DNA from: Thermosediminibacter litoriperuensis
GTDB lineage: Bacteria; Bacillota; Thermosediminibacteria; Thermosediminibacterales; Thermosediminibacteraceae
Reading direction: 5' to 3'
DNA: 54,630 nucleotides
Assembly (NCBI RefSeq): GCF_008124715.1
Contig: NZ_VNHO01000015.1
Location: forward strand, 1 to 54,630
The notes under the pieces were generated by a model. That model searched no databases, was not told where the DNA came from, and saw only the letters and a program-made list of their open reading frames with translations. A program made the translations under genes and the position numbers. This document shows, piece after piece, positions 6,303-38,285 of the stretch (positions within the stretch are counted from its first letter, which is position 1; every line of letters starts with the position of its first letter).

Positions 6303-6400
6303 AAACACCCTGTAAAGGGCAAACCCGGTGAAAGCCGGGGGCGCAAAGCTACGGGCCTAAGGGTGAAAATGCCTATTGGCCGCCGGGCTGCCGGGGAACG
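6303..6400 (+). promoter_or_regulatory. Cyclic di-GMP-I (GEMM) riboswitch
   Basis: The conserved GEMM-I skeleton is present: AGGGCAAACC, a GGTGAAAGCC hairpin with GAAA-type loop, GCGCAAAGC, GGGCCTAAGG, and a 3' domain containing GCCGCCGGGCTGCC. It sits inside the pilus operon between pilT and pilC. The last helix overlaps the left arm of a terminator hairpin (6384-6391), so c-di-GMP binding would be expected to control read-through into pilC and the pilins. The likely sense is ON when bound, because the aptamer competes for the terminator arm; this direction is inferred. Confidence 0.88.
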
Positions 6401-23011: not shown

Positions 23012-23041
23012 AATTTAGGAAATAAGTAAATCAAGGGTTAA

Positions 23042-23164
23042 GCCTTCGGGGCAGGGTGAAATTCCCGACCGGCGGTAAGCCTTCATGGCGAGCCCGCGAG
23101 CCCTTTTAAGGGGTTGACCCGGTGAAAATCCGGGGCCGACGGTAAAGTCCGGATGGGAGAAGGC
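23042..23164 (+). promoter_or_regulatory. FMN riboswitch (RFN element)
   Basis: The conserved RFN blocks are all present: GGGGCAGGGTGAAATTCCCGACC, split here as the P2-P3 region, then GGCGGTAAGCC, AGCCCGCGAGCC, GGTGAAAATCCGG, GCCGACGGTAAAGTCCGGATGGGAGAAGG. The closing helix GCCTTC (23042-23047) pairs with GAAGGC (23159-23164). High FMN should stop expression of the downstream transporter through the hairpin that follows. Confidence 0.95.
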
Positions 23165-23188
23165 GATCATGAAGTAATTTGACGCTAT

Positions 23189-31385: not shown

Positions 31386-31441
31386 TATTAAAAGAGGGAA
31401 AATAACAAGACGGGAAGAAATAAAATTTTATGGTGATAGTC

Positions 31442-31981
31442 ATGAACTCCCTTTTATCGGAGCTATACGAGGTGGTACTAGACTACGGTTACGTCGCCAT
31501 CTTTGCTATACTGGCCTTCGAAGGCACGGGCATGCCCGCACCGGTCCAGGTGGTATTCCTGGCGGCGGCCTTCCTCATAAAAAAGGGTAAAATTTCTTTC
31601 TGGACGGCGGTGCTCACCATGGCTCTGGGCAACCTGCTGGGAAACGTGCTCGCGTATTATGCCGGCCGTATCAAGGGGAAACCCTTTTTCGACAGGTACG
31701 GGGAAAAAATCAAGCTATGGCGGGAAGGTTTTGACCGGATAAAGGAGTGGTACAGCCGCTACGGCGGCCTGGTGATCGTGGGCAGCCGCCTTATAGGCAT
31801 TCCGCGTACACCGGCCGTCTGGGCTTCGGGGATCATCGGGATCGATTTCAGGGTCTATGTAATTTATAGTTTTCTGGCAGATTTTATATGGGCATCCTTT
31901 TACACCTTCTTAATGTATAAAGGCCTGGCGCTGCTCCACCTGATCGGGCGGTTTATAATAAAAAGTAAGAGCCCGCAATGA
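31442..31981 (+). CDS. DedA/SNARE-associated family membrane protein
   Basis: A 179-aa inner-membrane protein of the DedA/VTT superfamily, whose members are thought to move lipids (undecaprenyl phosphate or phosphatidylethanolamine flipping). Key features are FEGTGMPAPVQVVFLAAAFLI, the GNLLGNVLAYYAGR motif, and the GSRLIGIPRTPAVWASGI conserved arginine loop, with a hydrophobic C-terminal helix. An ATG at 31430 also exists, but ATG 31442 has GGTGAT four bases upstream. Its last bases overlap the 3' arm of the closing helix of the minus-strand structured RNA. Confidence 0.88.
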   Translation: MNSLLSELYEVVLDYGYVAIFAILAFEGTGMPAPVQVVFLAAAFLIKKGKISFWTAVLTMALGNLLGNVLAYYAGRIKGKPFFDRYGEKIKLWREGFDRIKEWYSRYGGLVIVGSRLIGIPRTPAVWASGIIGIDFRVYVIYSFLADFIWASFYTFLMYKGLALLHLIGRFIIKSKSPQ

Positions 31982-32377
31982 CCTACGCTGCAGCTATCAG
32001 GGATCTCTACACAGCCCGCTGCAACCTTTCGGCTGCATGGGACCATCACAAAACCCCTGATAACCTCCGCTCGACTGCCATGAGTTCCTCAGAAGCCTGC
32101 AGCAATCTCTCGACTGCTGCAGACCTCCAGTTAAACCTTGTAAAAAAAGGTCCTAACCTGCGGAACCCATGACAATCTTAGCTCGAATGTTATACATCTC
32201 TTTTGACCCCAGAGTGACCCAAAAGGCCACTCTGAAGCCTTACAAGACGCATAACACTCTGCCCGCCGGCCGGTACCGAGCCTTTACCCGGTACCGACCT
32301 TTGGCCGACTACCGCAGAACCCCGTAAAGGGATCCTGCAGCAGTCTTGGCTCGGCCATTGCGAACCCCTACGTTTTT
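31965..32377 (-). ncRNA. Strongly structured RNA of about 400 nt, family not recognised
   Basis: The minus strand folds into an ordered set of helices. A 13-bp closing helix joins 32353-32365 to 31971-31983. Inside are a 17-bp hairpin (32307-32345), GGTACCGGG/CTCGGTACC (32272-32295), a 13-bp helix (32244-32256 with 32188-32202) enclosing a 10-bp hairpin (32210-32234), an 11-bp GAGA-loop hairpin (32097-32122), a GAAA-loop hairpin (32021-32036), and ATCAGGG/CCCTGAT (32055-32061 with 31996-32002). Many pairs are G-U only when read on the minus strand; on the plus strand they become A-C mismatches, so the minus strand is transcribed. The 3' end runs into CTTTTTATTAT. RNase P and tmRNA hallmarks are absent. 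It lies upstream of and divergent from the 32456 gene. Confidence 0.75.
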
Positions 32378-32378
32378 A

Positions 32379-32406
32379 TTGTACTCCTAAGATGAATTTA
32401 TATACT
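32379..32406 (+). promoter_or_regulatory. Promoter of the PEP/pyruvate-binding-domain gene
   Basis: TTGTAC (32379-32384) and TATACT (32401-32406) have a 16-base spacing. The site is divergent from the 5' end of the structured RNA. Confidence 0.45.
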
Positions 32407-32455: not shown

Positions 32456-34183
32456 ATGGCGGAATACAGGAAACAAAAGCTCAAAGAATATATAGCCTTC
32501 GACCCGCTTCAATACGAGCGGTTCAGGCAGCAGACTCTGGGTTGCGGCACCATAGGCGGAAAGGCCAAAGGTTTTCTCTATTCCAAAATTATACTCAGAG
32601 AAAATAACGATGAGATTTTAGCAAATGTAATGATTCCCCCGAGTTATTTCATCGCCACCAGCGTGTACGAGGATTTTTTAGAAAAAAACGGTATTAGCAA
32701 AATTATAGAAGAATCGCCGCAGGATCTGGGGAGAATCCAGGGGGCAATTATGGAGGGTGAATTTCCCGGATATGTAAATGATTTCCTGAAAAGGGTTTTG
32801 AGCATAATGAAGTGTCCGCTGGCGATAAGGTCGTCTTCCATGCTGGAGGACAGTGTCAAATACTCCTTTGCGGGTAAGTACTTTACCACGTTCATACCCA
32901 ACAGGGGCGGCGAAAAGGAGAGATTGCACCAGCTGGCCGGCGCCATAAAACAGGTATACGCCAGCACCTTCGGCAAAAACGCGGTGGTTTACAGAAAAAA
33001 GCACGGGCTGGCGGAGGAGAAGATGGCGGTGATTATCCAGCAGCTTTTCGGAAAGCAGAGGGGCGACGGCTTTTATCCGGAAATCGCCGGTGTAGGTTTT
33101 TCCCAGAACTACCGCCGTTTTACCGAGAGGATAAGAAAGGAAGACGGGGTCGTCCGTATGGTGTTCGGGCTCGGCACCAGGAGCACCGGCAGGGGATATG
33201 CCAGGACCTTTTCTCTGACGAACCTGGAGCTGAGGCCCGAAGGCAACAACGCCCAGGAAATAGCCAAGTACTCTCAGGAGACCTTTGACATGCTCAATCT
33301 GGAGACGGGGAAGCTGGAATCGTATAATATAAATGAGAGGCTTGACCTGATACCCTATCACAGGGGTTTCAACAGGCTGTGTTCCCTGTATTCCGCAGCT
33401 GAAAACGCGATAAAGGACATTCCACCCGTAGTGACCTCTATCAGCCCGGGAGATAAGCTCATATTCACCTTCGACAGATTTCCGGCTTATAAACCGCGCT
33501 TTTTCACGCTTATGAAATATCTTTTTTCGGTGCTCGAAGACGCTATGGGGATCGCAGTGGACGTGGAATGGGCTTATGAGCTGGAAGAGCCCAGATTCGC
33601 CCTTATCCAGGTGAGGCCCATGTCGAGCTGGGAAGAGTACCGGAAGGTCAGGATTCCCGAAGGAATAAAGAAGGAGGATATCATCCTCGCCGGCGACCGG
33701 ATGCTGACCAACGGTATGGTGCAGGGCATCAAATACCTGGTGTACGTCGACCACGACGAATTCCACGCAAGCCCCGACAAATTCGCCATCGCCCGGGAAG
33801 TGGGCAGGGTGAACGAAAATCTGGCCGGCGAAAGATATATCCTGGTGGGGCCGGGGCGGTGGGGTTCCAGCAATCCCATGCTGGGTGTTCCCGTAAACTA
33901 CAATGAGATATGCAACTGCGGCGTGCTGATAGAAGTGGGAATCCAAAGGAAGAGCTTCACACCGGAGCTGTCTTACGGCACCCATTTTTTCGCTGGTTTG
34001 GAGCTGGACGGAATCCTCTATATGCCGGTTTTCGACAGCATCGAGACCAATATAATCAATTTCGACTGGTTCAGAAACGCCCCCAGAAAAGCCACCGGTC
34101 ACAGGGCAGTCTGGATTTACGAGGGGGAATTCGATGTTTACCTGGACGGGGATAACATGAAGGGAATTATATTAAAAAAATAA
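32456..34183 (+). CDS. PEP synthase/PPDK-type ATP-binding domain protein lacking the PEP domain
   Basis: A 575-aa cytoplasmic protein. The N terminus LGCGTIGGKAKGFLY and the segment CPLAIRSSSMLEDS, which continues into SFAGKYFTT, match the ATP-grasp pyruvate/PEP-binding domain of PEP synthase and pyruvate phosphate dikinase. EWAYELEEPRFALIQVRPMS is the end of that domain. There is no downstream swivelling phospho-His domain and no PEP-utilising barrel, so it cannot be a complete PEP synthase. The C-terminal 190 residues are conserved-looking (RYILVGPGRWGSSNPMLGVPV) but not recognised. ATG 32456 follows AGGAGGCGG. Its function is unknown; a phosphotransfer or regulatory role is a guess. Confidence 0.75.
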   Translation: MAEYRKQKLKEYIAFDPLQYERFRQQTLGCGTIGGKAKGFLYSKIILRENNDEILANVMIPPSYFIATSVYEDFLEKNGISKIIEESPQDLGRIQGAIMEGEFPGYVNDFLKRVLSIMKCPLAIRSSSMLEDSVKYSFAGKYFTTFIPNRGGEKERLHQLAGAIKQVYASTFGKNAVVYRKKHGLAEEKMAVIIQQLFGKQRGDGFYPEIAGVGFSQNYRRFTERIRKEDGVVRMVFGLGTRSTGRGYARTFSLTNLELRPEGNNAQEIAKYSQETFDMLNLETGKLESYNINERLDLIPYHRGFNRLCSLYSAAENAIKDIPPVVTSISPGDKLIFTFDRFPAYKPRFFTLMKYLFSVLEDAMGIAVDVEWAYELEEPRFALIQVRPMSSWEEYRKVRIPEGIKKEDIILAGDRMLTNGMVQGIKYLVYVDHDEFHASPDKFAIAREVGRVNENLAGERYILVGPGRWGSSNPMLGVPVNYNEICNCGVLIEVGIQRKSFTPELSYGTHFFAGLELDGILYMPVFDSIETNIINFDWFRNAPRKATGHRAVWIYEGEFDVYLDGDNMKGIILKK

Positions 34184-34229: not shown

Positions 34230-36401
34230 TTACCTTTCCGTACTCATAAATCGCACGACGACAGTGGCGGCCTGGGCTCTGGTAACCGGGGCCTGCGGCA
34301 GGAATCTGCCGGAAATGCCCTTAATGAGGCCGAGGCCCATAGCGATGGCCGCATGGCCCCTGTAAGCGGGATTAACCGATGCGGCGTCTCCCGCCTTGAT
34401 AACGTATATCTCCTGAAGGGAAGCGACCCTGTCGTACCCCATGGCTCTCACCAGGATTGCCGCCATCAGTTCCCGCGTAATGGGACCTTCAGCCTCGACT
34501 TCGCCCTTCTTAACAAATCCCGCCCTGACTGCGGCGTCGATGATCCTCTCGGCCTCTTCCCCGTCCTTTTCCGGCGGTACGGAGGTTCCGAACTTGAGGA
34601 TAATTCCCAGCTCTTTCCCGACCGGGTAATTACCGGTGGCGGTAAGCATCATTTTAAGGAATTCGGCGGCGGTGATTTTTTCGTCGGGGCCGAACTTTTC
34701 GCCCTGCGAATCGATGATACCCATATTTACCAGCAGCTGCACGTTTTTTTCGGCCCAGTGGCCTTTAATATCGGTGAATTCAGGTTTGGGCTTTTCCTCG
34801 ATGGGATTGCCGGCATAATCCAGGGGTTTCATGTCGAAGGCGTCGAAGGTGTACGAGGGCGACGGGCTGATACTATATACAAGCCTGTAGCCGCTTTTTT
34901 CCGGTTCAACAAAGCGCATGTAAGCCAGCTGCAGGCCTACTTTTTCGAGGAAGAGTTTTTCAGCCTGGCCTTCATCAACGACGCCTTCCGGTTCGGGGAA
35001 GGTGGTATCGTACCATCTGCTGTAATAACTTACGATCTTGCCGCTCTGGGCGTCGACAGTCACGCTGAAGCCGTTGTCCAGGAAGGGTATCCCGTTGACC
35101 TGCCTTGTGTAATTAAATACGAATTCTCTTGTTTTTTCCGGAACCGGCTGCGAATTTTCAGGGTTTTCGAGTTTAACCGTCAGGTACTTCTCGGGCTGAA
35201 CCTTTTTTAGGAAATCACCGGCTTTTTTCGCGGCGTCTTCTCGGTCGAGGTTCTGTTTGAAATCATTTCTGTAACGCGAGCTGTCGTATATATCAAAGCT
35301 CAGAAGTTCTGAGGTCGAAGCGTCGACCCGAGCGCTTATTGAGCCGTAATCGTCGGGCTTTCCGGAGGTTTTCTCCCAGCTTATACTCCACACCCTGCGC
35401 CCGGGGTTGTCGTAATCCTCGTAAAGCCCTGCATACCGCTGCTCGTAATCACCGGGTATTTCCACGTATTTTTTTACGACCTCAACGGCTTTTTCCTTGG
35501 GGATAAGCTTTTTTGTAGCCTCCAGTTCCTTCTGTTCCTGAGGCGTCAGTTCACTTTCAGCCTGCTTAGCTGCTCCGGCTCCTGCCCCGTCAAAGTATAT
35601 GGGATACCCGTAAGATCCCCGGCTCAGCACCTCTCCGGTGAAGGCGTCCACGTAAAAGTTGTGGGGATTGTTAACCTGATATACCAGTTTAACCTTTTGC
35701 TCTCTTGTTTCGTAATTGTAAAACCGCCTGTACATCAAAGTCAGTCCGGATTTTTCAAGGAATACCTTTTCAGCATCCTCTTTTGATATTATTTTTTCCG
35801 GAGACGGCAGTTCTTCAAAGGTCCACCGGAAGTTGTAGTTGATAATTTCGCCGGTAAAGGCGTCCACGGTGATATTAAAACCGTTATCGATTACCGGGAT
35901 ACCCTCATACATCCTTTGGAAATATAAGTTGTAATGGCGGGTGTAAATGTCGATTAGGGGCCTTACCGGCGGGACATCCTGCCGGCGGTAAACGGTCATT
36001 GCAAATTCTTGGGGCTGGAGTTTTGCCGCAAACTCTTGGGCAATCTTTTTCGCATCCTCTTCAGAAATCTTAGGCAAAAGAGTGCTCTTTCTAGTATCTT
36101 CTCCGGAGTAATTGGACAGCTGGATTATGTATCCCCTCTCGGCGTCCACCGTAACGTAGAGCCTCTTATAGGGTTCTTTGGAAGTACTCCAGTTCAGATT
36201 CCACATCCTGCCTTCTGGCGTTTCTCTAAAGTCTATAGAAAATTTGTCATAGATGCTGGTGTCGAAAAACTTTTTTACGAGCTCGACGGTCTGCTCCTGC
36301 GAGAATTTGGGATTTTCACCGGCCAGAGCAAGAGCGGGAACGGTTGAAAGAATGAAAAGAAGGATAAGCGCCCATACAAAAGGGGCCTTGAATCTCTTCA
36401 C
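34230..36401 (-). CDS. Secreted protein with YcdB/YcdC repeats and C-terminal SLH domains
   Basis: A 723-aa exported protein. A signal peptide is plain (FVWALILLFILSTVPALALAG). Two large repeats follow, each with the YcdB/YcdC plus PepSY-like layout: KISEEDAKKIAQEFA, then VYRRQD, and later EDAAKKAGDFLKKVQP. The first repeat ends with SKEDAEKVFLEKSGLTLMY and the second with GQAEKLFLEKVGLQLAYM. After residue about 540 there are SLH domains (FTDIKGHWAEKNVQLLVNMGII and VNPAYRGHAAIAMGLGLIKG), which anchor proteins to cell-wall pyruvylated polymers. GTG 36401 follows GGGAGGG at seven bases. It is probably a surface-located protein of the wall; the enzymatic role is not known. Confidence 0.87.
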   Translation of the reverse strand: MKRFKAPFVWALILLFILSTVPALALAGENPKFSQEQTVELVKKFFDTSIYDKFSIDFRETPEGRMWNLNWSTSKEPYKRLYVTVDAERGYIIQLSNYSGEDTRKSTLLPKISEEDAKKIAQEFAAKLQPQEFAMTVYRRQDVPPVRPLIDIYTRHYNLYFQRMYEGIPVIDNGFNITVDAFTGEIINYNFRWTFEELPSPEKIISKEDAEKVFLEKSGLTLMYRRFYNYETREQKVKLVYQVNNPHNFYVDAFTGEVLSRGSYGYPIYFDGAGAGAAKQAESELTPQEQKELEATKKLIPKEKAVEVVKKYVEIPGDYEQRYAGLYEDYDNPGRRVWSISWEKTSGKPDDYGSISARVDASTSELLSFDIYDSSRYRNDFKQNLDREDAAKKAGDFLKKVQPEKYLTVKLENPENSQPVPEKTREFVFNYTRQVNGIPFLDNGFSVTVDAQSGKIVSYYSRWYDTTFPEPEGVVDEGQAEKLFLEKVGLQLAYMRFVEPEKSGYRLVYSISPSPSYTFDAFDMKPLDYAGNPIEEKPKPEFTDIKGHWAEKNVQLLVNMGIIDSQGEKFGPDEKITAAEFLKMMLTATGNYPVGKELGIILKFGTSVPPEKDGEEAERIIDAAVRAGFVKKGEVEAEGPITRELMAAILVRAMGYDRVASLQEIYVIKAGDAASVNPAYRGHAAIAMGLGLIKGISGRFLPQAPVTRAQAATVVVRFMSTER

Positions 36402-36559
36402 ATGTTTTCCCTCCCTGATATGATATTTAAGGTGCGCTTTTCTGGAACCGTTCAAATCACCTCCCGTTATTGAAATTATAACATTATTTATAAAAGTCTT
36501 CTATCGGCAGGGGCCGATTTCCAGTTAATTTAATGTTACAAATTAATTATAAAAAATAA

Positions 36560-38141: not shown

Positions 38142-38170
38142 ATATTCATAAAAAATCGTTCATCCTTTAA

Positions 38171-38245
38171 CCCCCTATATAATTCCGGGAATATGGCCCG
38201 GAAGTCTCTACCGGGTGGCCGTAAACCACCGCAGGCTATAGGGGA
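38171..38245 (+). promoter_or_regulatory. Purine (guanine-type) riboswitch
   Basis: The purine aptamer is clear: P1 CCCCTATA with TATAGGGG, the conserved TATAATTCCGGGAATATGG then AAGTCTCTACCGGG, CCGTAAA and the loop-loop partners. The base corresponding to position 74 is C (GGCTATAG), the guanine- or hypoxanthine-type choice and not adenine. Downstream GGGGAAA can pair with TTTCCCC as antiterminator, while CCCC(C)ATAGTCGGGG followed by TTTTTTC is the terminator. Guanine binding should turn the permease off. Confidence 0.93.
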
Positions 38246-38251
38246 AAGTTT

Positions 38252-38285
38252 ATTTCCCCCATAGTCGGGGACTTTTTTCTTTTTA
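38252..38285 (+). terminator. Guanine riboswitch terminator
   Basis: TCCCC (about 38255-38259) pairs with GGGGA (38267-38271) and the hairpin is followed by CTTTTTTCTTTTT. Its left arm is also the partner of the antiterminator GGGGAAA (38241-38247). Confidence 0.7.

Follow-up and report, generated by a model that had tools for sequence, protein, structure and literature searches.

A large structured RNA of an evidently undescribed class in Thermosediminibacter litoriperuensis, with a putative forespore promoter and a distribution confined, among the genomes sampled, to sporulation sigma factor carriers

We analysed a stretch of 54,630 nucleotides from Thermosediminibacter litoriperuensis (assembly GCF_008124715.1, contig NZ_VNHO01000015.1, positions 1-54,630), referred to here as the window; all bare coordinates are window positions. 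On its minus strand, between a dedA-like gene and a PEP-synthase-like gene, lies a structured RNA gene that is present once in the genome. The conserved unit runs from 32369 to 31963 (about 405 nt), while the likely transcript would start at 32369 ± 5 and end at about 31955, its 3′ end overlapping the final codons of the convergent dedA. The features of the locus are:

31430-31981, plus strand: dedA-like gene (VTT domain PF09335, by domain match), convergent with the RNA and outside its system; adjoins the RNA in close relatives only.
31955-32369, minus strand: structured RNA gene, likely transcript about 405-415 nt, identified from blastn homologues, alignment A1 (see below), covariation and covariance-model matches.
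31955-31966, minus strand: U-rich tail after the closing helix P1, probable intrinsic terminator (from homologue 3′ ends).
32377-32387, minus strand: -10 element GGAGTACAATA of a putative sigma-F/sigma-G promoter, with the same architecture as the SASP promoter of the T. litoriperuensis genome.
32401-32405, minus strand: -35 element GTATA of the same putative promoter (sequence GTATATAAATTCATCTTAGGAGTACAATA at 32405-32377), conserved in 119 homologue upstream regions.
32456-34183, plus strand: PEP-synthase-like gene (PPDK_N PF01326, by domain match), divergent from the RNA and outside its system; adjoins the RNA only in Thermosediminibacterales/Tepidanaerobacter-type genomes.

The two flanking genes are those named in the original prediction, which was made from the sequence of the window. 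Both are neighbours local to the clade, which makes the gene context uninformative. No gene neighbour is common to the RNA across families, and most neighbours lie on the opposite strand. Within the clade, the RNA often has upstream of it a relative of the protein encoded at 34230-36455 (minus strand), which carries YcdB/YcdC repeats, SLH domains and PepSY/YpeB-like segments. The window also holds part of a group II intron (D1-D4; 84-253, minus), a c-di-GMP-I-GGC RNA (6309-6396, plus), an FMN riboswitch (23038-23168, plus) and a purine riboswitch (38155-38258, plus).

Folding of the minus strand from 31945 to 32397 gave -263.7 kcal/mol, compared with a mean of -152.0 (s.d. 6.6) for shuffled sequences (z = -16.8; 0 of 100 shuffles equal), which bears out the minus-strand fold predicted at this position. 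No reading frame is conserved across the homologues, in which the longest stop-free run has a median of 48-70 codons; a coding gene was rejected because no frame is open throughout.

Structure and covariation were assessed on an alignment of 49 non-redundant homologues (A1). RNAalifold returned a single consensus of 140 pairs, 139 of which were counted directly. Across these, pairing is intact in 98.0% of pair cells, and double compensatory changes occur at 97 of the 139 pairs, with 1114 double-change cells compared with 296 in shuffles. The covariation score is 0.573, against 0.261 in shuffled alignments (none of 500 reached the observed score) and no more than 0.149 with partners slid. Sequence varies within the helices and indels are nearly absent. 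The comparative structure has 12 helices, arranged as a closing helix (P1), a central GC mini-helix, two hairpins (D1 and D2) and three two-storey arms (D3, D4 and D5), the arms being connected by a repeated GAGC-NAA motif:

32353-32367, minus strand: P1, 5′ strand of the 15-bp closing helix, pairing with 31983-31969 (100% of cells paired).
31969-31983, minus strand: P1, 3′ strand, followed by a U-rich stretch (comparative structure, covariation).
31987-32350, minus strand: central GC mini-helix (32350-32349 with 31988-31987) and the flanking GAGC-NAA junction motif repeated between arms (comparative structure).
32307-32345, minus strand: arm D1, 16-bp hairpin with a variable loop (11 of 16 pairs with double changes).
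32263-32304, minus strand: arm D2, CC/GG foot and 13-bp hairpin (comparative structure, covariation).
32185-32259, minus strand: arm D3, outer 16-bp and inner 14-bp helices around a 4x4 internal loop (comparative structure, covariation, match to model R1).
32069-32182, minus strand: arm D4, GC foot, outer 12-bp and inner 16-bp helices, GAGA loop and variable insert (comparative structure, covariation).
31992-32065, minus strand: arm D5, outer 16-bp and inner 15-bp helices, GUAA internal loop and GAAA loop (comparative structure, covariation).

The original prediction had described at least seven nested helices, a 13-bp helix closing the whole unit and a 17-bp hairpin at 32307-32345. The nested fold holds, with 12 helices as the count; the closing helix does enclose the unit, at 15 bp (32367-32353 with 31983-31969) rather than 13; and the hairpin coincides exactly with arm D1, at 16 bp rather than 17. 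The GAGA and GAAA loops that it pointed out are the apical loops of D4 and D5, which are GNRA loops in 46 and 48 of the 49 homologues, respectively. Its argument for strand, from G-U pairs, holds in the alignment: G-U makes up 27.7% of pair cells, and at 16 pairs an identical wobble recurs in 90% or more of the homologues. Read from the plus strand, these invariant G-U pairs would turn into A-C mismatches, so the minus strand is the RNA strand. A search for tertiary contacts by covariation recovered none, the output consisting of structure pairs and clade-split columns only; covarying columns outside the nested structure seem to reflect differences between clades.

In part, the arms repeat one another. 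R1, a covariance model built on arm D5, also matches D3 within the same molecule (58.5 bits, E = 1.4e-16) and gives weaker matches to D4 and D1. In addition, P1 and D1-D5 each contain one triplet of neighbouring pairs consisting of G-U, a Watson-Crick pair and U-G. All six triplets lie within 31970-32366 on the minus strand, with these first pairs:

32366-31970, minus strand: triplet in P1.
32334-32318, minus strand: triplet in D1.
32288-32279, minus strand: triplet in D2.
32238-32206, minus strand: triplet in D3.
32125-32094, minus strand: triplet in D4.
32044-32013, minus strand: triplet in D5.

Both wobbles are retained in 47-49 of the 49 A1 homologues at each of the six copies. The findings on the full set of arms and on the triplet apply to families short of the most distant ones (Desulfitobacteriaceae-like, Halanaerobiales-like). 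The middle pair covaries in several arms.

Among 101 related genomes, blastn found homologues at or close to full length (66-90% identity) in members of the family and, more widely, of its order, class and phylum, and full-length homologues extend across Clostridia and Negativicutes. A pattern taken from the conserved 5′ end identified 94 DNA stretches in genomes of named species, including Thermosediminibacterales, Tepidanaerobacter, Fervidicola, Pelotomaculum, Desulforudis, Desulfocucumis, Carboxydocella and Acetivibrio, and, in Negativicutes, Pelosinus, Propionispora and Lucifera, with three or four copies in some. One of the pattern matches, in Woeseiaceae (L085), was spurious and is no homologue. 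Several diverged copies per genome occur in Propionispora (three: L035, L049, L080) and Lucifera (four: L038, L051, L081, L095), each apparently with its own promoter element, and two copies (L037 and one on G099:C9) lie about 2.2 kb apart in one genome. Three loci of a single family (L158, L159 and L163, in G121, G356 and G038) have a different P1 sequence (GGGTCGGCC...GGCTCT), and their arms keep the class features.

The boundaries of the structured unit are marked on both sides. Averaged over 119 non-redundant homologue upstream regions, the upstream element reads GNATA...GGnCAnAATA, its -10-type box ending mostly 7-10 nt before the structured unit and its -35-type GNATA box lying upstream. 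Relative to random stretches of the same composition, a -10 box at the right distance was found in 107 of 119 regions (21 expected), the strict sigma-F pattern in 29 (1.1 expected) and the sigma-G pattern in 23 in strict form (1.2 expected) and 54 in relaxed form (3.4 expected). Two sigma-A patterns tried on the same 119 regions gave 5 matches against 3.4 and 11 against 2.5, and the element does not fit sigma-A. The sigma-F and sigma-G consensus forms are those of B. subtilis. As a positive control we used the alpha/beta SASP genes of the same genome and family: the T. litoriperuensis SASP promoter (L193) is GTATT-N15-GGTTATATTA, and the same element stands upstream of SASP genes in the family. 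Sigma-F and sigma-G elements are indistinguishable from sequence alone, and the two kinds of promoter overlap in C. difficile, SASP genes included (PMC7438776). On the 3′ side, a U-run follows P1 immediately in 38 of 77 homologues, and in another 27 a downstream hairpin and U-run occur within 60 nt. Since a promoter element and a terminator-like end flank the structured unit, the transcript is most likely the structured unit itself.

We then related the RNA to sporulation across 398 genomes of the phylum. A sigma-F model placed 340 genomes with a close sporulation sigma factor and 58 without one, the latter having a best E-value above 1e-60, a cut-off of our own set at a wide gap in the E-values. 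The R1 search found the RNA in 169 of the 398 genomes, and a broader model (R2) raised the count to 176 genomes in 68 families, all seven additions carrying the sigma factor. Carriers of the RNA thus number 176 among the 340 genomes that have the sigma factor and zero among the other 58; for the 169 R1-positive genomes a Fisher test, which ignores shared ancestry, gave p = 4e-16. The same split is seen within single families, for example f15 and f57. Within this sample, the RNA is confined to genomes with sporulation sigma factors. About half of the sampled sporulating genomes gave no match, through loss or divergence; either sporulation in general can do without the RNA, or those genomes have a form too diverged for the models to recognise. 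In the nearest relative, of the same genus (G001), only a remnant of about 135 nt persists (L176, G001:C1:1899658-1899792), in which P1, part of D1 and D5 are left; it has lost the intervening arms, and its P1 has a changed 5′ strand. This mostly arm-less remnant argues against an essential role there.

The original prediction had called the RNA unassigned and had named an Rfam search and covariation among homologues as its checks. At gathering thresholds no Rfam 15 family matched the locus, and with all 4227 families and E-values up to 10 only chance eukaryotic matches far below threshold appeared; the helices covary, as described above. An unassigned structured RNA selected for folding is therefore what the homologues in many families, the covariation and the invariant wobbles point to. 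The promoter type, the sporulation link, the internal repeats and the repeated wobble triplet go beyond that prediction. RNase P RNA, tmRNA and 6S RNA were rejected as candidates, each having its own copy elsewhere in the genome (C11:55991-56342, C14:1592-1941 and C26:13397-13580, respectively). We found no description of the RNA in the literature searched, which lay mostly outside subscription papers and preprints.

The closest known system in biology is CsfG, yet it is a different and shorter RNA. We take CsfG to be the Rfam family ylbH (RF00516). A passage of PMC9147052, citing Marchais 2011, presents CsfG as a forespore RNA of endospore formers; it is about 136 nt in B. subtilis and corresponds to the ylbH leader motif in the opposite orientation (PMC3574147). 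The ylbH model has no match to the RNA at its locus and a weak, below-threshold match on another contig of the T. litoriperuensis genome, beside a SASP gene; CsfG and the RNA thus appear to be separate genes. The RNA may share its time and place of action with CsfG without being a member of that family. Weak, below-threshold CsfG/ylbH matches occurred once per genome in all 13 genomes searched (including G000:C1:127955-128046, minus strand), lying just downstream of an alpha/beta SASP gene in the T. litoriperuensis genome and several others, which suggests that these anaerobes have CsfG too, perhaps transcribed together with the SASP gene.

Four other groups of RNAs invite comparison. Like the raiA motif RNA, or ModT, the RNA is structured and widespread in Bacillota, where ModT acts in trans and affects sporulation (PMC11706538); the raiA motif RNA differs in length (about 205 nt; PMC12286853), and ModT expression is largely exponential-phase in several clostridia (PMC11706538). 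OLE is likewise a large ornate RNA of anaerobic or extremophilic Bacillota, but measures about 600 nt (PMC9723947) and is located at cell membranes (PMC12265935). ROOL and GOLLD are large ornate bacterial RNAs with multi-arm folds; a ROOL example has 659 nt and both form RNA-only nanocages (PMC12286853). None of the raiA, OLE, ROOL and GOLLD models matched the RNA (Rfam 15, E up to 10). The smtA motif (Soda Lake RNA, HRC-65-1) also exceeds 350 nt and shows covariation (PMC11109978), but is reported only from the Gram-negative Thioalkalivibrio. Large structured bacterial RNAs of unknown function are already a known, loose category; the RNA is almost certainly new in the sense of a class with no detectable homology to any described one.

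Comparative analysis thus establishes a minus-strand RNA fold that is evidently under selection, with a clade-wide, putative two-box promoter element, a terminator-like end and no conserved neighbour. From the promoter type and the distribution, expression in the forespore is predicted with high confidence. We consider it likely that the gene specifies an independent noncoding RNA, belonging to a class not described before, that is produced in the forespore and acts in trans; we propose that it serves as a scaffold with repeated sites. Sigma-G and/or sigma-F RNA polymerase would transcribe it inside the developing spore, as for SASP genes, a step that is strongly inferred. The RNA would then fold into a rigid object, a closing helix and five arms joined by A-rich junctions and GNRA loops, in which the one wobble/Watson-Crick/wobble triplet per helix could provide six equivalent docking sites. 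Their partners might be a forespore protein, metal ions, the RNA's own A-rich elements or other copies of the RNA, and the scaffold would act in trans in the forespore or in the core of the maturing or dormant spore. That the RNA is a scaffold with repeated sites, rather than a catalyst or a regulator, is put forward tentatively, at somewhat less than an even chance.

A regulatory role is an unlikely alternative. A forespore RNA resembling 6S RNA or a protein sponge might bind RNA polymerase, ribosomes or an RNA-binding protein and shut down its activity as dormancy sets in. The timing predicted from the promoter element would be the same, trans action agrees with the lack of a conserved neighbour, and six identical wobble triplets could titrate one protein; yet the genome has its own 6S RNA, the arms show neither a long conserved single-stranded stretch nor an open-complex-like bulge, and conservation is located in junctions and wobble pairs. 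Of similarly low probability is an RNA-only homo-oligomer (cage or filament) in the manner of ROOL and GOLLD, in which copies would dock in the spore by way of their GNRA loops and wobble sites. Arms that vary in sequence with hardly any indels within helices, GNRA loops kept in 46/49 and 48/49 homologues and a repeated docking-like motif would all fit, and among bacterial RNAs ROOL and GOLLD need no protein to assemble (PMC12286853). Against it, no conserved kissing-loop complementarity was seen, the D1 and D2 loops vary freely, and the covariation analysis gave no intermolecular signal.

The size, complex fold and invariant junction nucleotides could also suit a ribozyme active in spore formation or germination, but we regard this as distinctly improbable: the invariant nucleotides are scattered over equivalent repeated junctions rather than gathered in one core, and no ribozyme family of Rfam 15 matched. 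That the RNA controls either neighbour, dedA or the PEP-synthase-like gene, as a structured leader or as an antisense RNA is very improbable; the 3′ overlap with the end of dedA at the T. litoriperuensis locus would be in keeping with it, but neighbours differ among families, commonly lie on the opposite strand and are not conserved, so the RNA is not a leader, and the structured unit coincides with both predicted transcript ends. A mobile, MITE-like element with the closing helix as its terminal inverted repeat has a negligible probability, since its long inverted repeat and the several diverged copies in some Negativicutes are outweighed by the single copy in T. litoriperuensis, the absence of any match in a plasmid-origin search, invariant G-U pairs specific to one strand and equivalent to A-C mismatches in its complement, a conserved external promoter and ordered divergence with covariation over 68 families.

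A bolder reading, with a modest chance of being correct, is that this RNA forms a particle in the spore core. An old forespore RNA shared by many Clostridia and Negativicutes would then present an identical wobble/Watson-Crick/wobble site on its closing helix and on each of its five arms, and might join with further copies of itself or with a forespore protein to build a regular structure that spores need for maturation or long dormancy. Large structured bacterial RNAs without a known function are few, and we found none tied to the forespore by promoter and distribution. With a single-copy gene in many genomes, a predicted expression window and a repeated invariant motif, the role of this RNA is directly testable. 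The RNA appears to be an old part of endospore formation in anaerobic Bacillota that work on model organisms has missed.
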